DNA from: Inhella inkyongensis
Lineage (GTDB): Bacteria > Pseudomonadota > Gammaproteobacteria > Burkholderiales > Burkholderiaceae_C
Length of the DNA: 64,000 nt
NCBI RefSeq assembly: GCF_005952805.1
Contig: NZ_CP040709.1
Location: 2,604,001 to 2,668,000 of the forward strand
Reading direction: 5' to 3'
Numbering within the stretch: position 1 is the first letter of the stretch; every line of letters starts with the position of its first letter. Shown here piece by piece: positions 8,944-16,750 of the stretch. Made by a program: the position numbers and the translations under genes. Below the pieces are notes generated by a model. It saw nothing but the letters and a program-made list of their open reading frames with translations, was not told the origin of the DNA and ran no database searches.

Positions 8944-10139
8944 TTTGCCCCTCCCTGCAAACAACGCGCAATGATGCCGTCCAACCGCCGCATCGAGGCG
9001 GCCCAGTCGTGGTGGCTGAGCACACGCTCGCGGCCGGCTTGGGCCAATCGCGCGCGCTCAGCCGGGCTTTCCACCACGCGCAGCACAGCGTCGGCGATGT
9101 CCTGGGCGCTGTCGGCCACCAGCAGGTGCTCGCCGGCCACGGCATCCACACCACCCGCCGCCGCCGGGCTGGTGACCACGGGCACGCCCATGGCCATGGC
9201 TTCCAGGATTTTGTTCTGCGTGCCGCGCGCAATGGCCAGGGGCGCCACATTGACGCAGCTCTTCAGCACATAGGGCTGCACCTTGGGCACCGAGCCGGTC
9301 ACGGTCACACCGGGCAGTTCGCCCAGCGCGCGGATGAAGGGCGGCGGCTCGGCCCCCACGATGGTCAGCTTGAGGCTGGAACGGCGCGCCCGCAGGATGG
9401 GCCACACCTCCTGGCAGAAGCGCAGCATGCACTCCTGATTCGGGTAGTAGTCCATGCGGCCGATGAAGCTCACCAGATCGGGGTCGTGGTGGTCGGGCGC
9501 TGCCGGGCTGAAGGCACTGGCATCCACGCCGTTGGGGAACCAGTCCGTCTTGGCACCGGTGCCGTAGTCTTCCAGCGTCTGCCACTCGGCCCGGGTGGTG
9601 GCCGTGCACAGATCAAATTTGCGCGCCAAGGCCTTTTCGGCGCGCAGCATCTTGTGGCCTTCGAGCAGATAGCCCCAGCTGAGCGGCCAGGGCTTGTAGT
9701 TCGCGTACTCGATCCACTTCTGCGAGTCCATGTCGCCGAAGTCCAGGATCTTTGGAATGCCCTGCACGTCCTCCACGTACTGGGCCACAGACGAGCAATG
9801 CACAAAGATCAGATCAAAGCGCTCGGCCGCCAGCAGGCGCTTGACCTCGGCCGCCGTGTCGCTGCAGTAGAAGTAGCCCATCGACGAGGGCGTGAGCAGG
9901 GGCAGGCGCAGCACCATGCGAATGAACTGCACGGGTTCCCTGACCTGACCGATGTGGAAGCGCTCACAGTGCTCGGCAATCCCCTGGCTCTCGGCCGTCT
10001 CGGCATCCGAGCGGCTGAGCGAACACACCGTCACCTGGTGCCCACTGGCCTGCAGGTGCCGAATCATGTTGAAGGGACGGATCTTGCCGCCGCGCTTCGG
10101 GGGGAAAGGGAAGCGGTGGCAGAGGTAGAGGATCTTCAT
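8940..10139 (-). CDS. PEP-CTERM/XrtA-associated GT4-type sugar transferase (stp1-like)
   Basis: A 399-residue GT-B glycosyltransferase matching the sugar-transferase family found with exosortase A loci (TIGR03087-like). It starts MKILYLCHRFPFPPKRGGKIRPFN, with a typical N-terminal Rossmann domain whose KRGGKIR loop contacts the donor, and has the C-terminal donor-binding block from about residue 215 (FPNGVDASAF, VSFIGRMDYYPN) to GTQNKILEAMAMGVPVV. It would add one sugar to the lipid-linked repeat unit at the cytoplasmic face. Upstream is an unusual 350-bp gap holding two structured elements; downstream it overlaps the TPR gene by GTGA. Donor and linkage cannot be told from sequence. Confidence 0.9.
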   Translation of the reverse strand: MKILYLCHRFPFPPKRGGKIRPFNMIRHLQASGHQVTVCSLSRSDAETAESQGIAEHCERFHIGQVREPVQFIRMVLRLPLLTPSSMGYFYCSDTAAEVKRLLAAERFDLIFVHCSSVAQYVEDVQGIPKILDFGDMDSQKWIEYANYKPWPLSWGYLLEGHKMLRAEKALARKFDLCTATTRAEWQTLEDYGTGAKTDWFPNGVDASAFSPAAPDHHDPDLVSFIGRMDYYPNQECMLRFCQEVWPILRARRSSLKLTIVGAEPPPFIRALGELPGVTVTGSVPKVQPYVLKSCVNVAPLAIARGTQNKILEAMAMGVPVVTSPAAAGGVDAVAGEHLLVADSAQDIADAVLRVVESPAERARLAQAGRERVLSHHDWAASMRRLDGIIARCLQGGAK

Positions 10140-10193
10140 TGCTCTATTGATCTAACTTCAGCAGTTCGTCGCAGGCTGCCAGTGCACCGCAGC

Positions 10194-10296
10194 GCGAGGG
10201 CGTAGGGTGGGCGGCGCAGTGAAGTAAAGGAGGAGCCGGGCGCCGAAAGGCGACCGGTGGAGGACATGAACGGAGCCGCCCACCCTGCGGCCTCGC
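10194..10296 (+). ncRNA. Structured RNA-like element, copy A
   Basis: A 103-bp element in the gap between a glycosyltransferase and an amidotransferase gene. The outer arms 10194-10215 and 10275-10296 pair over 22 positions with one G-G mismatch and one G-U-type pair. Inside are a conserved single-stranded-looking block (AGTGAAGTAAAGGAGGAG), a nine-position hairpin closed by GAAA (10235-10256), and a second conserved block (GGAGGACATGAACG). Copy B, 48 bp away in reverse orientation, has the same conserved blocks but different, still-paired stems, which is the signature of an RNA structure or a structured mobile repeat. Transcription is not shown. I do not recognise the family. Confidence 0.55.
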
Positions 10297-10343
10297 AGAG
10301 CTCGGTCTCAGCACGCGGCGATTGGCCTGCGAGCACCGAGCGA

Positions 10344-10448
10344 ATCAGGCCACTGGGGTACCGTGTTGCGCTCATGTCCCCCTGCAACGGCCTAACGGCC
10401 GTCGCCTCCTCCTTGACTTCACTCCACACGGCACCCCAGCGACCTGAT
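10344..10448 (-). ncRNA. Structured RNA-like element, copy B (inverted)
   Basis: A 105-bp element read on the minus strand, homologous to copy A. Its 23-nt outer arms (10344-10366 and 10426-10448) differ from perfect pairing at three sites, and all three become G-U pairs in the minus-strand RNA. Inside, the blocks AGTGAAGTCAAGGAGGAG and GGGGACATGAGCG match copy A almost base for base, while the inner nine-pair stem and its GTTA loop are different in sequence but still pair. The minus strand is also the direction of the surrounding operon, so copy B would be present in the operon transcript in sense orientation and copy A in antisense. Confidence 0.55.
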
Positions 10449-10488
10449 GTCAAGGCACCGAGCCGTGCGGGAATGGATAGGCAGGCGC

Positions 10489-12423
10489 TCATCGCTTCAA
10501 CATCGCGTGGAATTCATCCGCCAGGCTGGCCGGATCGCGGCCGTCCAGGTAGAGGCGGGCCCAGACTTCCAGATTCAAGAGCGCCAAGAGCACATCGGTG
10601 TGGTCGGCCTTGGCCGCCTGGTGCTCGGCCATCAGGCGTTGCACCGGCTCAGGCGCCAGCCAGCCGCGGGCGCGGATGACTTCGGGGGCCAGCAGGCCCT
10701 GCAGCAGGGGCTGCAGCGAAGCCTTCAGCCAGGCGCCCATGGGCGTGCCGAAGCCGCGCTTGGCGCGGTGCAGGATGTCCTGCGGCAGCTTTTCGGCCAG
10801 GGCAGCCTTGAGCACATGCTTCAACTGCCCACCGGCGATCTTGATGTCGGCGGGCATGCTGGCCGCCATGGCCACCAGTTCCGGGTCCAGCAGCGGCACG
10901 CGGCACTCCAGCGACACCGCCATGCTCATCTTGTCGGTCAGCATCAGGAGGTCGTCGGGCAGCTGGGTCTCGGCGTCCACGGCCAGCAAACGGGTCAAGG
11001 CGTCGCTGCGGGGCGCGGCGGCCAGCGCGGCGCCCAGGGCATCGTGCGTCCCGGCACCGTCCAGCAACAGGGCCTTGACGCCTTCGCGGCCCAGCACCTG
11101 CACGTAGTGGCGGTAGCGGCTGTCGCTATCCAGCTCAGCGGTCTGGATGAAGCCCTTGGCCAGGCGCAGCACGTTCAGCCACTTGGCGTGGCGGTCGGCC
11201 GGCAGGTAGCCCGCCACCGCCGAAGCCACCCGCCGCAACGGGCCGGGGATGGCGCCCCATTTGGCGGCGTAGTGGTCGCCCAGGTAGCGGCGGTAGCCGC
11301 CAAACAGCTCATCGCCGCCGACGCCGGAGAGGATGACCTTCACATCCTGGCGCGCAAACTGGCTCACCAGGTAGGTGGTGATGAAGGCCGAGTCGGCCAG
11401 CGGCTCATCCATATGCCAGAGCAGCTTGGGCAGCAGCCCCACCACATCGGGCTTGACGACGATTTCGTGGTGCTCGGTGCCAAAGAGCTGGCTGACCTGG
11501 CGCGCAAAGGGCAGCTCGTTGTAGAGCGTCTCGGCCGCGCCACCTTCAAAGCCAATGGCATAGGTGCGGATGGGCTGGCTGGACTGCTGGGCCATATAGG
11601 CCACCACCGCGCTGGAATCGACGCCGCCCGACAGGAAGGCGCCGATGGGCACATCGGCCACCATCTGCATGCGCACCGCGCGCTCCAGATGTTCACGCGT
11701 GCGCGCCAGCCAGTCCTCGCGCGTGGCCGTGCGGTCGACGCGGACGTTTTGATCCGACAACCGCCAGTAACGCCATTCCTTGACCTGACCGCCCTGCACC
11801 GACAACAAGGTGGCCGGCGGCAGCTTGCGAATGCCCTTGAAGAGGGACAGCGGCGCGGGCACATAGCCCAGGTGCAGGTAATCCGGCAGGGCTTCGCGGT
11901 TGAGTTCGGCGCGCACGCCGGGCAGCTTCAGCAGGGCCTTGGCCTCGGTGGCGAAGCCCAAACGCTGGCCGTCCTGCAGCACATAGAGCGGCTTGACGCC
12001 CAAGGGATCGCGGCCGATCAGCAGGCGGCGGCTGCGCGCATCCCAGAGCGCGAAGTCGAACATGCCGTTCAGGCGCTCGACCACCGCATCGCCCCAGGCC
12101 AGATAGCCCTGCAGCAGCACCTCGGAGTCACTGTGGGTCTTGAAGCTGTGTCCACGCGCGATCAGCTCCTGACGCAGCTCGCGGTAGTTGTAGATCTCGC
12201 CATTGCAGACCAGCCAGACCTGGCCGTCGGCGCTGGACAGCGGCTGGTGGCCCCCGCTCAGGTCGATGATCGAGAGGCGCCGCATCGCAATGCCGCAGTC
12301 GCCGTCGATGTGCTGGCCCTCGTCATCGGGGCCGCGGTGGGCGGTGATGTCGCCCATGGCCGTCAGCCATTGCGACTCGACGGCGCGGCCGTCGAGCTGG
12401 ATCAATCCGTGAATGCCGCACAT
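10489..12423 (-). CDS. asnB: AsnB-type glutamine amidotransferase (XrtA-associated)
   Basis: A 644-residue complete asparagine synthetase (glutamine-hydrolysing) family protein. It begins MCGIHG, so the glutaminase nucleophile Cys2 is present after Met removal; the class-II amidotransferase domain continues through RLSIIDLSGGHQPL and CNGEIYNY. The synthetase half has the PP-loop SGGVDSSAVV and GVGGDELFGGYRRY. Exosortase A loci typically carry such amidotransferases, thought to amidate a sugar carboxylate of the polymer rather than make asparagine; this is inference here, supported by the UDP-HexNAc dehydrogenase in the same operon. It starts four bases after the stop of the glycosyltransferase upstream. 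The paralogues at 13,657 and 6,522 differ from it. Confidence 0.9.
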   Translation of the reverse strand: MCGIHGLIQLDGRAVESQWLTAMGDITAHRGPDDEGQHIDGDCGIAMRRLSIIDLSGGHQPLSSADGQVWLVCNGEIYNYRELRQELIARGHSFKTHSDSEVLLQGYLAWGDAVVERLNGMFDFALWDARSRRLLIGRDPLGVKPLYVLQDGQRLGFATEAKALLKLPGVRAELNREALPDYLHLGYVPAPLSLFKGIRKLPPATLLSVQGGQVKEWRYWRLSDQNVRVDRTATREDWLARTREHLERAVRMQMVADVPIGAFLSGGVDSSAVVAYMAQQSSQPIRTYAIGFEGGAAETLYNELPFARQVSQLFGTEHHEIVVKPDVVGLLPKLLWHMDEPLADSAFITTYLVSQFARQDVKVILSGVGGDELFGGYRRYLGDHYAAKWGAIPGPLRRVASAVAGYLPADRHAKWLNVLRLAKGFIQTAELDSDSRYRHYVQVLGREGVKALLLDGAGTHDALGAALAAAPRSDALTRLLAVDAETQLPDDLLMLTDKMSMAVSLECRVPLLDPELVAMAASMPADIKIAGGQLKHVLKAALAEKLPQDILHRAKRGFGTPMGAWLKASLQPLLQGLLAPEVIRARGWLAPEPVQRLMAEHQAAKADHTDVLLALLNLEVWARLYLDGRDPASLADEFHAMLKR

Positions 12424-12427
12424 GCTC

Positions 12428-13660
12428 TCAAGCTCCTAGGGCCGCATGGCTGCGGCCCTGCCGCGCCAACGCACGGCGGTACACCTCAGGGTAGCGCGCC
12501 ACACTGTTGCGCCAGGTGCGTTCGGTTTCGACAAAGGCTCGCCCTTGGCGCCGGATCTGATCCCACTGGGCCTGACCCGCCAAGGCGCGCTCCACGCCAG
12601 CGGCCCACTCTTGGGCCGAACCGGCCGGGCAGAGGTAGCCGGTGTGGCCGTCGCGAATCAGCTCGCGGTGCCCCCCCACGTCACTGGCCAGCAGCACGCG
12701 GCCCTGGGCCATGGCCTCCAGGGGCTTGAGCGGCGTCACCAGCTCGGTCAGGCGAATGGGCAATCGCGCATAGCAGAGCAGGTCGATCTGCTCGTAATAG
12801 CGCGCCACCTGTGCATGCGGCACGCGGCCGGTGAAGCGCACGATGTCACCCACACCCAAGGCAGCCACCTGGGCCTTCAAGCGTTCTTCCTCCGGCCCGC
12901 CGCCCACCAGCAGCAGGCGCAGGCTGGGGTGGCGCGAGCGCAGCGCCGCCAGGGCCTCGATCACCAGATGCAGGCCTTCGTACTTGTAGAAGGAGCCGGC
13001 AAAGCCCAGCACCGTGCAGCCCTCCAGGCCCAACTCGCGCCGCAGGGCCGGGTCCGCGGCCACGCCGAACTGGAAGGACTCGACATCGACCGCGTTGGGG
13101 ATGACGGTGACGGCTTCGGCGGCCAGGCCGCGGCTCAGGATGTCGCCGCGCAGTCCTTCGCAGATGGTGGTCACGGCATCTGCCCGTTTCAGGGCAAAGC
13201 TCTCCAGCGCGCGCGAGACGCGGTAGCGCAGGCTGCCCTCGGTGGTCGTGCCATGGTCGACGGCCGCGTCCTCCCAGGATGCACGCATCTCGTAAACCAC
13301 CGGCACCCCGGTCGCGCGGCCCACCCACAGCGCCGGCAGCGCATTGAGCACCGGCGAATGGGCATGGATCACATCGGGTCGGTGCTGATCCACCAACTGG
13401 CGCAGTCGCGCGGCGGTCTGGCGCATCTGCGTCAACAAGCCGTCCTGCGCGCTGGAGGGCGTGCGATAGAAGGTCCAACCATCGACTTGGCTCTCCAACG
13501 CAGTGTCGGCGCCCTGCTTCGGGCTGGTCAGGTGCAAAGTGTCCCAGCCGCGCTTGCGCTGTTCACGCAGCAGGGCCAGGGTGCGGAAGGTGTAGCCGCT
13601 GTGCAGCGGCAGGGAATGGTCCAGCACATGCAGGACCTTCAAGGGACTGACAGCGCTCAT
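12428..13660 (-). CDS. XrtA-associated GT4-type glycosyltransferase (Daro_2409-like)
   Basis: A 410-residue GT-B glycosyltransferase resembling the PEP-CTERM/exosortase A-associated family TIGR04063. The start VLHVLDHSLPLHSGYTFRT is characteristic, with the acceptor-side Rossmann domain up to about residue 190. The donor-binding domain includes VIPNAVDVESF, GFAGSFYKYEGL and ELVTPLKPLEAMAQG, the last carrying the usual Glu. It should act on the cytoplasmic side, extending the lipid-linked repeat unit. It overlaps the upstream amidotransferase by ATGA and is followed four bases after its stop by the next amidotransferase, so glycosyltransferase and AsnB genes alternate in this operon. Sugar specificity unknown. 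Confidence 0.9.
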   Translation of the reverse strand: MSAVSPLKVLHVLDHSLPLHSGYTFRTLALLREQRKRGWDTLHLTSPKQGADTALESQVDGWTFYRTPSSAQDGLLTQMRQTAARLRQLVDQHRPDVIHAHSPVLNALPALWVGRATGVPVVYEMRASWEDAAVDHGTTTEGSLRYRVSRALESFALKRADAVTTICEGLRGDILSRGLAAEAVTVIPNAVDVESFQFGVAADPALRRELGLEGCTVLGFAGSFYKYEGLHLVIEALAALRSRHPSLRLLLVGGGPEEERLKAQVAALGVGDIVRFTGRVPHAQVARYYEQIDLLCYARLPIRLTELVTPLKPLEAMAQGRVLLASDVGGHRELIRDGHTGYLCPAGSAQEWAAGVERALAGQAQWDQIRRQGRAFVETERTWRNSVARYPEVYRRALARQGRSHAALGA

Positions 13661-15600
13661 GCGAACTGGGGCGCAGCTTGTGGCACCGGCAAACCAATGG
13701 ATTCAGGGGCGTCCACCACCTGGCGAAGGAAGGCTTCAAACATCATCAGCGTCCACAGCGGGGCGCTGTAGTCACTCTTGCCGGACTGGTGGGCGTCCAC
13801 CAGATGCTCCAGGTAGGCGCGGTTGAACCAGCCGGTGCTGGCCAGACGCTCGCCCAGAATGGCGTCGCGCACACGCTGCTTCAAGGGACCACGGAACCAG
13901 CGCGCCAGCGGCACGGCAAAGCCCATCTTGGGGCGATAGAGGATGTCGTCGGGCAACAGCGGCTCCATGGCCTTCTTGAAGAGGTACTTGCCCTCCTGGC
14001 CCTGGATCTTGAGGCTGGAAGGCAGCGTGGCCAGCCACTCGATCAGTGGGTGATCCATCAACGGCTCGCGCACCTCCAGCGAATGCGCCATCGAGGCGCG
14101 ATCCACCTTGGTGTTGATGTCGCCCACCAGATAAGTCTTGTAGTCCAGGTACTGGATCAGGGCCAGCGGGTCATCCGTTCCGGCTGCCGCGCCATGGCGT
14201 TCGAAAACCTCAAAGGCGTTGTAGCCCGCCAGCTCGCGCTTGAACTGGTCGGAAAACAGCTGCGCGCGCATCGGCCCACGCAGGATGGAGACCGAGTGGA
14301 AATAGGCCTGCACCGAACTGCGCGCCAGGCCCTCGAAGGTGGTCTTGCCGCGCAGGAAGCGCGGCGCCCAGTCCAGCTTGGGATAGACCCTGCCCAGAGT
14401 GCCAAACACCGTTTTGCGCAAGCCATAGGGCAGCGCGGCGCGCATGCGCTCTTCCATCAGGTGCATGCGGTAGCGCCGGTACCCGCCAAAGGTCTCGTCG
14501 CCCCCGTCACCCGACAAGGCCACCGTCACATGCTGGCGCGCCAGCTGGCAGACGCGGTAGGTCGGGATGGCCGAGCTGTCGGCATAGGGCTCGTCATAGA
14601 GCCGCGCCAGGGTGTCGATCAGGTCGAAGTCGTCGCTCTTGACCATCTCCACCCGGTGGTTGGTCTTGTAGCGGTCGGCGACGATTTGCGCGAACTGGCT
14701 CTCGTTGAACTTGGGGTCGTCAAAGGCAATTGAGCAGGTGTTGACCGGCTCGCTCATCATGCCGGCCATGGAGGCCACGACGGCGCTCGAGTCCACCCCA
14801 CCCGAGAGGAAGGCGCCCAAGGTGCGCTCGCTCTGAAGACGCAGCTTCACGGCCTCGTCCAGGCGCTGGCGCAGCTCCACCTCCGCATCGCGCTGGCTGA
14901 TGGTGTTGTCCAGTGTGAAGCGCACATCCCAATAGGGACGCGACTGTGGAGGCGCTTCGCCACGCTTCCAGAGCACGCAATGCCCGGGCTCCAACTTTTT
15001 GGCGCCCTTGAACACGGTGCGCGGCTCGGCCGCATAACCCAGCGCGAAGTACTCCTCGACCGCATGCGGGTCGAGCTCGCGGCTCAATCCACCATGGGCC
15101 AAGAGGCTCTTAAGTTCGGAGCCGAACAGCAGCCAGCCATCGGGCAGCAGCGCGTAATGGAAAGGCTTGACCCCCATGCGGTCGCGCGCCATGAAGAGCG
15201 TCTGGCGTCGCGCGTCATGGATGGCAAAAGCAAACATGCCGCGCAGGTGCTTGACGCAGTCCTCGCCCCAGTGCTCCCAGGCGCGCACGATGGTCTCGCT
15301 GTCGCTCTTGGTACGGAAGCTGTAGCCGGCGGCGCGCAGCTCCTGCATCAGCTCCAGGTAGTTGTAGATCTCACCGTTGAAGACCAAGGCCACCGAACGG
15401 TCGTCGTTGAAGATGGGCTGCTGGCCGGTGGCGATGTCGATGATCGACAGGCGCCGATGGCCCAGGCCCAGGCCGGGCTGAATGTGCAGCTCGCCCTCAT
15501 CGGGGCCACGGTGGTGCTGCGATTCATTCATCCGGTGCAGGCGCTCACGCTCGGGCGTGCGCGTCTGGCGGGTGTCAAAAAGTCCGGTAATGCCGCACAT
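13657..15600 (-). CDS. asnB: XrtA-associated amidotransferase 1 (AsnB family)
   Basis: A 647-residue asparagine synthetase-family enzyme matching the exosortase A-associated amidotransferase type (TIGR03108-like). MCGITGLFDTRQ gives the catalytic Cys2; the glutaminase domain has RLSIIDIATGQQPIFND and FNGEIYNYLEL. The synthetase half has SGGVDSSAVVASMAGM and GDGGDETFGGYRRYRMH, and the C-terminal region contains REPLMDHPL and PKMGFAVPLARWF. The open frame reaches 15651, but ATG 15600 (Met-Cys) must be the start because the Cys has to be N-terminal. It lies four bases after the stop of the upstream sugar transferase and overlaps the next gene by ATGA. Its likely role is amidation of a sugar acid or acyl group in the exopolysaccharide. 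Confidence 0.92.
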   Translation of the reverse strand: MCGITGLFDTRQTRTPERERLHRMNESQHHRGPDEGELHIQPGLGLGHRRLSIIDIATGQQPIFNDDRSVALVFNGEIYNYLELMQELRAAGYSFRTKSDSETIVRAWEHWGEDCVKHLRGMFAFAIHDARRQTLFMARDRMGVKPFHYALLPDGWLLFGSELKSLLAHGGLSRELDPHAVEEYFALGYAAEPRTVFKGAKKLEPGHCVLWKRGEAPPQSRPYWDVRFTLDNTISQRDAEVELRQRLDEAVKLRLQSERTLGAFLSGGVDSSAVVASMAGMMSEPVNTCSIAFDDPKFNESQFAQIVADRYKTNHRVEMVKSDDFDLIDTLARLYDEPYADSSAIPTYRVCQLARQHVTVALSGDGGDETFGGYRRYRMHLMEERMRAALPYGLRKTVFGTLGRVYPKLDWAPRFLRGKTTFEGLARSSVQAYFHSVSILRGPMRAQLFSDQFKRELAGYNAFEVFERHGAAAGTDDPLALIQYLDYKTYLVGDINTKVDRASMAHSLEVREPLMDHPLIEWLATLPSSLKIQGQEGKYLFKKAMEPLLPDDILYRPKMGFAVPLARWFRGPLKQRVRDAILGERLASTGWFNRAYLEHLVDAHQSGKSDYSAPLWTLMMFEAFLRQVVDAPESIGLPVPQAAPQFA

Positions 15601-15604
15601 GGGT

Positions 15605-16750
15605 TCAGTCTTGAAGCAAAGAGCGGCCCAAAAGGCCGCGATAGAGCGCATCGTAGGCCCCCACCATGGCTTTCAGACTGAAGCGCCCCTCAGCTCGGTG
15701 GCGCGCCGCCCGACCCATAGCCTGCACGGCAACCGGGTCGGTGGCCCAGGTGCATAGGGTGTCGACCATGGCCAAAGGCTGGCCCGCAGGAACCAAGGCG
15801 CCAGTGCGCGGGGCATCCACCAGCTCGGCATTGCCCCCCACATCGGTGGCCAGCACGGGCAGGCCGCTGGCCATGGCCTCCAGGATGGTGTTGGAAATGC
15901 CCTCGGCCAACGAGGGCAGCACAAAGGCGTCCAGGCCCTGCATCACGGCCGGCACGTCGCGGCGCTCGCCCGCCAGCCAGGCCAGATCGGCCACGCCGGC
16001 GGCCGACAGCCGCTGCTGACACTGCGCCCGCAGCGGCCCGTCACCCACCAGAGCCAGGCGCAAGCGGCTGCGCAGTTCCGGTTGGCGCTGCAGCGCCAAG
16101 ATGAAAGCCTCGACCAGGTCGGTCTGGGCCTTGACCGCCTGCATGCGCCCAACAGTGCCAACGACAAAGAGGCTCGGGTCGTTGAAGGGCGAGCCCTCCA
16201 GCGCCAGACGGCGGCTGCCGGGCTGGAAGCGCTCGGTGTCCACCCCGTTGCAAATGCGCTGGATGCGCGCGGCCGGCACGCCCACTCGATCGCGCAGATA
16301 GCCCTCCAACTCGCCAGAAAGGGCCACATAGCGCTGCACAAAGGGCATGTAGATCCGCCGCATCCACTGATGGCGTTTGGACAACCCCGCCAAGTCATCG
16401 GCATCGCGGCCGTGTTCACCGTGCACGCGCGCTGCGCGGCCATCCCACCAAGCGGGCAACTGCATCTCCAGTGCCGCCAGATTGCGGGTGTGCACCACCG
16501 CGGGCTTGAGTCGCCGCAGCGCACTCAGGAACGCCGGTGCCACCTTGAGCGATTGCCCGGGCGGCTTGTTCAGGGCCAGAAACTCGGTGTCCGTACGCTG
16601 TACCCGGGCGCAAAAGCTCGGCTCACAGCGGTCCAGGGCCAGCACCGCGTGGCGGTAGCCCTCCAAGCGGTTGATCAGATTGACCACGCCGTTTTCAAGA
16701 CCGCCCGTATCGAAGCGGTAGACGACGTGCAGGATGAGGGGGGCGTTCAA
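15605..16750 (-). CDS. PEP-CTERM/XrtA-associated sugar transferase (stp2-like)
   Basis: A 381-residue GT4-type glycosyltransferase like the exosortase-associated family TIGR03088. The N-terminus LILHVVYRFDTGGLENGVVNLIN is diagnostic; later blocks are VHTRNLAALEM, ICNGVDTERFQPG, VGTVGRMQAVKAQ and EGISNTILEAMASGLPVLATDVGGN. No ATG fits the family start: the frame runs to 17002, but a TTG at 16750 overlaps the upstream stop as TTGA and has GGAG eight bases before it, so I choose TTG. This keeps the coupling pattern seen in the rest of the operon. Cytoplasmic repeat-unit assembly is the inferred role. Confidence 0.9.
   Translation of the reverse strand: MNAPLILHVVYRFDTGGLENGVVNLINRLEGYRHAVLALDRCEPSFCARVQRTDTEFLALNKPPGQSLKVAPAFLSALRRLKPAVVHTRNLAALEMQLPAWWDGRAARVHGEHGRDADDLAGLSKRHQWMRRIYMPFVQRYVALSGELEGYLRDRVGVPAARIQRICNGVDTERFQPGSRRLALEGSPFNDPSLFVVGTVGRMQAVKAQTDLVEAFILALQRQPELRSRLRLALVGDGPLRAQCQQRLSAAGVADLAWLAGERRDVPAVMQGLDAFVLPSLAEGISNTILEAMASGLPVLATDVGGNAELVDAPRTGALVPAGQPLAMVDTLCTWATDPVAVQAMGRAARHRAEGRFSLKAMVGAYDALYRGLLGRSLLQD

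Follow-up and report, generated by a model that had tools for sequence, protein, structure and literature searches.

What are the two inverted hairpins that lie between neighboring genes of the XrtA operon, a sugar-polymer operon, in Inhella inkyongensis? The window, meaning the whole stretch of 64,000 nucleotides analyzed here, holds motif A at 10194-10296 on the plus strand and motif B at 10345-10447 on the minus strand, inverted and separated by 48 nt. A sequence-only reading had placed them inside the operon, and that label is right. The left neighbor of the doublet is a TIGR03087 glycosyltransferase gene on the minus strand (464 bits, cut-off 317). The other neighbor is an XrtA-type amidotransferase gene at 10489-12423, also on the minus strand, which matches TIGR03108 with 545 bits, under the cut-off of 817; the two genes that follow score above cut-off for TIGR04063 and TIGR03108 and thereby secure the operon assignment. 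The explanation favored here, with slightly better than even confidence, is that the locus is one copy of a non-autonomous mobile doublet composed of two inverted hairpin arms of ~100 nt, in which the strand bearing the core folds, more likely as single-stranded DNA than as RNA, and which would be moved by a core-binding protein. The parts of the doublet are as follows.

10194-10296, plus strand: arm A (type I), the whole folded motif, with outer stem 10194-10215 pairing with 10275-10296; matched by the models
10216-10234, plus strand: 5' side of the arm A core (GCA GT GAAGT AAAGGAGGA)
10235-10258, plus strand: inner hairpin of arm A, with a C[GAAA]G loop
10259-10274, plus strand: 3' side of the arm A core (GGAGGACATGA AC GGA)
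10297-10344: 48-nt spacer of the [+ -] doublet, with an inverted GCTCGGT...ACCGAGC inside
10345-10447, minus strand: arm B (type II), the whole folded motif, with outer stem 10447-10426 pairing with 10366-10345
10407-10425, minus strand: 5' side of the arm B core (GGA GT GAAGT CAAGGAGGA)
10383-10406, minus strand: inner hairpin of arm B, with a C[GTTA]G loop
10367-10382, minus strand: 3' side of the arm B core (GGGGGACATGA GC GCA)
10448-10462: right end of the repeat unit in the own genome (last letters CACCGAG), up to which most own-genome matches extend; the left end is less sharp

Both arms share one layout. From the outside in, an outer stem of 22 positions leads to a 3x3 step (G.A / C-G / A.G, with G-C as the middle pair in arm B), followed by two more pairs, a tandem G.A, the purine-rich core and finally an inner hairpin with about nine pairs. 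A two-block pattern has two matches in the window and none in 100 shuffles. The two copies lie where the sequence-only reading had put them, with the exact stem ends of arm B at 10345 and 10447, and both of the blocks that it had called conserved are found in each arm. The 22 positions of the arm A outer stem give 20 Watson-Crick pairs, one G-T, one other mismatch and no A-C; those of arm B give 19 Watson-Crick pairs, three G-T and no A-C, so that all three departures are indeed wobbles on the motif strand. Although the two outer stems share only 9 of 22 positions, each of them pairs, as had been proposed. Reading A and B as two samples of one stem was nevertheless mistaken, as they are actually two arm types of one recurring unit.

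The own genome contains ten copies, arranged as four inverted pairs and two singles. All four pairs are [+ -] with gaps of 48-51 nt. Their stems belong to two types, one of each per pair; stems of the same type are identical at 13-20 of 22 positions and partners at 7-13 of 22. This makeup of one arm of each type per pair explains why the stems of A and B are unlike. Arm P1b falls between the types, agreeing with type I at 12-14 and with type II at 14-16 of the 22 positions. Together, the outer stems of the ten copies hold 196 Watson-Crick pairs, 20 G-T, no A-C and four others.

Beyond this genome, the eight-copy model R1 was run on 200 sampled genomes of the same bacterial family and detected the motif in 84, the per-genome matches being the best 19 scored candidates. 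With ten copies at home and further copies with paired stems in these relatives, the suspected repeat family is upheld. Five genomes picked for high counts (13-19 matches with R1) have 20, 46, 28, 15 and 13 copies at E 1e-5. Across the class, model R2 found the motif in five of 369 genomes, an undercount given strict filters and the scoring of the best 10 candidates; besides the own genome, the carriers are a second member of its family, two from family f14 and a weak case (E 8e-5). Carriers of the two-block pattern among the matches listed include Rubrivivax, Hydrogenophaga, Rhodoferax, Aquabacterium and Methylibium, as well as Variovorax, Sulfurisoma, Luteimonas, Pseudoxanthomonas and others. 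Of 72,556 plasmid records one matches, over 27% of the query; none of 50,697 phage records does, and viral contigs yielded one matching stretch. The plasmid record is that of a conjugative Burkholderia anthina plasmid (NZ_CP071828.1), with a copy-like match at 178028-178120.

The inverted doublet is the prevailing arrangement. Neighboring pairs less than 200 nt apart in the examined loci (n=76, with one locus taken twice, L034 = L108) comprise 69 [- +], six [+ -] and one [+ +], and five of the six [+ -] pairs are in the own genus. Spacers between paired arms are mostly 40-60 nt. The outer stem has a modal length of 24 pairs, and 269 of 306 copies have 20-30 pairs. By crude, own-made ORF calls, which also underlie the sense and antisense counts given below, of 123 elements 94 lie between genes and the other 29 overlap an ORF call; the 73 intergenic elements with both neighbors called lie between convergent (28), codirectional (40) or divergent (5) genes. 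No neighbor gene recurs: the largest cluster holds six of 215 neighbor ORFs, and from its letters we take it to be an ABC transporter ATPase. One genome (G082) carries two doublets in tandem, [- +][- +] (L304, L309).

The pairing of the arms is backed by very strong covariation. In an alignment of eight own-genome copies, 98.0% of outer-helix cells are paired, 19 of 25 outer pairs have changed on both sides, and none of 500 shuffles scores as high on any of five pairing measures; the inner helix is 76.5% paired in this small alignment, against ~94% in larger ones. Alignment A4, made of 131 copies out of the loci fetched by pattern, has 4085 cells, of which 95.2% are paired; double changes occur at every one of its 34 pairs, and covariation is 0.760 compared with 0.182 in shuffles. 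Alignment A7, built from 150 R1 matches and still including eight of the nine duplicates mentioned below, gives 95.1% of 4826 cells paired and a covariation of 0.768 against 0.187 when shuffled and at most 0.120 in slid controls. This wide separation from shuffles upholds the earlier argument for selection on structure. Pairs with a change on both sides number 33 in A7, a value that 27 of 500 shuffles reach. Since the outer stem needs pairing alone, its letters drift by compensatory change. Copies are not independent of one another in any of the counts given here.

Between outer stem and inner hairpin lies a near-fixed purine core, AGTMAAGGRGGAG / CGGNGGACA. Its conservation was counted on model-found copies because the two-block pattern imposes the core on the loci fetched with it (at least 120 stretches, of which 80 were used). 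The model-found copies come from 80 regions of the best-scoring listed matches in the 200 genomes, from L020-L048 and from 12 class-survey loci, and the set leans towards well-kept copies. Nine of 219 matches were removed as identical or as opposite-strand matches to a place already counted, leaving 210; a further 14 whose core could not be placed were removed for the set of 196. Each of the eight core Gs is kept in 205-209 of the 210 copies. The base R between the first two GG steps covaries with the base N between the last two (n=196): A.G occurs in 149 copies and G.A in 34, followed by C-G (5), G-C (2) and A-U (1), with A.A (3), G.G (1) and A.C (1) as exceptions. A second core pair is A-U in 173 copies, G-C in 13, G.G in five, C-G in three, and G-U and C.U in one each. 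The tandem G.A is present in 153 of 196 copies; 32 have G-C plus A-U in its place and four have other ordinary pairs. Six of the 196 depart at one GG step. In one genome of family f14 (G478; L240, L246), the lower non-canonical core pairs have become plain Watson-Crick pairs. As a guess, the four GG steps might make up either a G-quadruplex of two layers or consecutive purine pairs; a simple quadruplex with free one-base loops was dropped, since the R/N covariation suggests that the two bases contact each other.

The core had also been read as carrying Shine-Dalgarno-like GGAGG followed by ATG, and this interpretation is not supported. In the 210 model-found copies the T of the ATG is kept in 182 and the G in 171, and the middle base of GGAGG covaries with a base of the other strand. 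Replacement of the tandem G.A by ordinary pairs alters the ATG, which is therefore meaningless as a start. A translation start and a Shine-Dalgarno mimic were both rejected on account of this variation.

Which strand folds can be read from the imperfect pairs. In the outer stems of the model-found set, GU outnumbers AC by 320 to 22, with 135 other mismatches among 3915 cells; in A4 the counts are 217 and 24, and GU exceeds AC in 96 of 131 copies, falls below it in three and equals it in 32. Mutation of a double-stranded palindrome should, by inference, give GU and AC alike. The excess of GU thus identifies the core-bearing strand as the folding strand and as the one under selection.

The excess of GU is also what RNA would be expected to show, and an RNA element is the strongest competing explanation, with an appreciable but lesser chance of being correct. 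Under it, the core strand is transcribed and the hairpin serves as a 3'-UTR element or small RNA, acting through stability, processing, or binding of 16S rRNA or of a protein, CsrA for example, by way of GGA/GGAGG. The scarcity of copies between divergent genes (5 of 73) fits such a role. CsrA, a candidate partner, binds GGA, and two GGA steps are near invariant in the 210 model-found copies; AAAGGAGG could presumably pair with the 16S 3' end, though the Shine-Dalgarno-like center varies. Against an RNA element, the strand bias is as strong in antisense as in sense copies. Among 197 copies sorted by context, GU:AC is 51:1 in those antisense to codirectional neighbors and 63:2 in those in sense, compared with 76:7 between convergent genes, 61:6 in ORF-call overlaps, 8:2 for copies flanked by divergent genes and 41:9 for those at contig edges. 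Read-through mRNA is not sufficient by itself to account for the bias. One consensus scan of this one locus found no promoter-like or terminator-like site at 9900-10700, where 0.1 and 0.5, respectively, are expected by chance, and words flanking the 306 copies are only weakly enriched (CGGTG in 61/306, against 6%).

The inner hairpin loops likewise speak against an RNA element. Among 267 distinct hairpins, whose loops are not independent events, C[GNA]G accounts for 114 (145 of 312 before removal of identical hairpins), C[GNYA]G for 23 and C[GNRA]G for 17, so that the 40 C[GNNA]G loops have no purine preference, and UNCG is absent. GNA and GNNA loops on G-C stems are described, in the part of PMC4686876 consulted, as extraordinarily stable DNA mini-hairpins. 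Tri- and tetraloop energies in ViennaRNA do not separate DNA from RNA parameters, and RNA may tolerate GNA loops too. Three lines, namely the antisense bias, the DNA-type loops and the lack of a promoter-like site at this locus, lean towards single-stranded DNA, none of them decisively; the lean is to a DNA fold as somewhat less than twice as probable as an RNA fold. The strand bias could help to tell whether repeats of this kind work as RNA or as single-stranded DNA, and strong covariation with wobble pairs is by itself no proof of RNA.

Mobility shows in the way whole doublets recur within genomes. In one genome (G060), five other loci match the doublet at L038 with 79-90% identity over 276-292 bp, with unrelated flanks. 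Another (G044) has units of ~350 bp that are 89-96% identical, again with unrelated flanks, and in a third (G069) the best unit matches are 80-92%. A whole pair that recurs at up to 96% identity in unrelated surroundings is therefore a small mobile repeat, and the mobile behavior that had been put forward as one option is borne out in these three genomes. Recent amplification does not show in every carrier: in a further genome (G150, 28 copies), none of ten loci matches another over 150 bp. Most arms have a partner, the two spread together in several genomes, and pairing is selected on the core strand. Two attempts at a clean empty site both gave breaks of synteny, and no target duplication was seen by eye in the G060, G044 and G069 units. 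Unit ends are of the CTCATAC type in G044 and short GCG..CGC in G060, with no clear ones in G069. The G044 doublet (L027, L287, L291, L294, L322), unlike the G060 and G069 units, is part of a larger unit whose terminal repeats, CTCATAC..., are imperfect.

For the mobile doublet, the proposed sequence of events is that the core-bearing strand would act single-stranded, more likely as DNA than as RNA; that a protein bound to the core fold would copy or move the doublet; and that the host would tolerate it mostly between genes, adjoining gene 3' ends. A more specific version is offered tentatively, as possible rather than probable: mobilization of the doublets may depend on single-stranded DNA folded like an aptamer, with a purine core that possibly forms a two-layer G-quadruplex flanked by two helices and is read by an enzyme other than the known REP-type Y1/HUH transposases. 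The repeat points to a mobilizing protein yet to be found. No transposase was recognized by eye between spaced copies at four loci, and the search for an autonomous version, by eye in these four loci plus L365 and L366, gave ordinary-looking ORFs alone; three ORFs from between spaced copies were run against Pfam. In one genome (G035, L365 648-2275), a doublet and a single copy enclose two genes, one helix-turn-helix and one hipA-like. Another (G103, L367 488-1379) has ~890 bp between two arms, with a 184-aa ORF that has no Pfam match; the stretch looks as if it were an insertion into the doublet spacer.

Among known repeats, the closest in build are REP sequences and the BIME/REPIN doublets mobilized by RAYT. 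In the portions of PMC3733652 and PMC6006769 drawn on, these resemble the present family as dispersed inverted doublets that have short spacers and are mainly intergenic, located by gene 3' ends, few of them between divergent genes, and often heterodimers. A genuine REP/REPIN, mobilized by a RAYT transposase (HUH, Y1), is nonetheless an improbable identity for the locus. The doublet build, the spacers of mostly 40-60 nt and the position by 3' ends agree with REPs as portrayed in the consulted part of PMC3733652, and GTGG is somewhat raised at the foot (43/306 against 52/641). REP arms, however, are given there as 20-40 bp, and in the corresponding part of PMC6006769 as 21-65 nt, compared with ~100 nt here. 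The stem of CGTC-type REPs is 8-9 bp against the modal 24 pairs, and this family differs from REPs in its large near-fixed purine core.

Most copies also lack the tags of GTAG- or CGTC-type REPs, which were accordingly rejected despite the mildly raised GTGG and CGGTG. GT[AG]G stands at the 5' foot in 50/306 copies against 80/641 in the control, leaving 256/306 without either form, and GTAG alone in 8/306 against 32/641. CGTC occurs in 31/306 5' flanks and GACG in 36/306 3' flanks, with a control level of 11%. Nor is there an association with RAYT/Y1: Y1_Tnp is found in 65 of 84 carriers and 82 of 116 non-carriers (Fisher p 0.33), and 19 motif-positive genomes have no Y1 match, including G060, its congener G172, G103 and G074. 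The family is thus a mobile doublet repeat, frequent in its bacterial family, that has a REPIN-like build but is of another kind.

Correia, ERIC and YPAL elements are bacterial MITE-like repeats, which are short non-autonomous mobile units that fold. The present family shares with them a short non-autonomous unit amplified amid unrelated flanks (in G060, G044 and G069, not in G150), and differs in its two separately folding arms, its near-invariant internal loop and the lack of a parent IS among the loci searched. Another multi-copy structured element of Burkholderiales is the Betaproteobacteria toxic small RNA RF02278; the consulted part of PMC4603805 gives it 64 positions, compared with ~103 here, and it was set aside because its model has no match in the own genome, a negative tempered by the equal silence of the 14 control genomes. 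The Burkholderiales-1 motif, a table row without Rfam accession in the part of PMC2864571 used, is likewise from Burkholderiales and may or may not be the same family. At gathering score, Rfam finds nothing in the window but a tRNA, in keeping with the description of the element as unrecognised. Permissive scans of 451 bases here and of 19 other loci gave sub-threshold matches alone, the best being a microRNA model over both arms of a doublet (E 2e-5, 43.8 of 200 bits). No earlier description was found in the open-licence literature, as judged largely from titles and abstracts, and the element is apparently unnamed. It would add a repeat family absent from Rfam and present in a large share of the sampled family genomes, with a core too elaborate for a plain palindrome.

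Template switching can correct long inverted repeats, and the arms could in principle be palindromes kept perfect in this way, with no selection on a folded strand. This is very unlikely, given that a process on double-stranded DNA should by inference yield GU and AC equally, which the observed excess contradicts, and that the core is near-fixed though mostly outside ordinary pairs. Least credible of all is a decayed gene, IS remnant or translation start, for although the region is covered by an open frame and GGAGG-AC-ATG resembles a start, the ATG is not conserved and the spanning frames have no family matches, so that a protein gene was rejected as well.

Two features of the operon itself deserve mention. 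The open frame, of 118 aa at 10136-10492 on the minus strand, covers the whole gap and overlaps both neighbor genes by ATGA; it has no NCBIfam or Pfam match and is probably a chance product of GC-rich DNA, though the double overlap is neat. The operon also includes two TIGR03108-like amidotransferase genes, at 10489-12423 and 13657-15651 on the minus strand, of which the second alone passes the curated cut-off.
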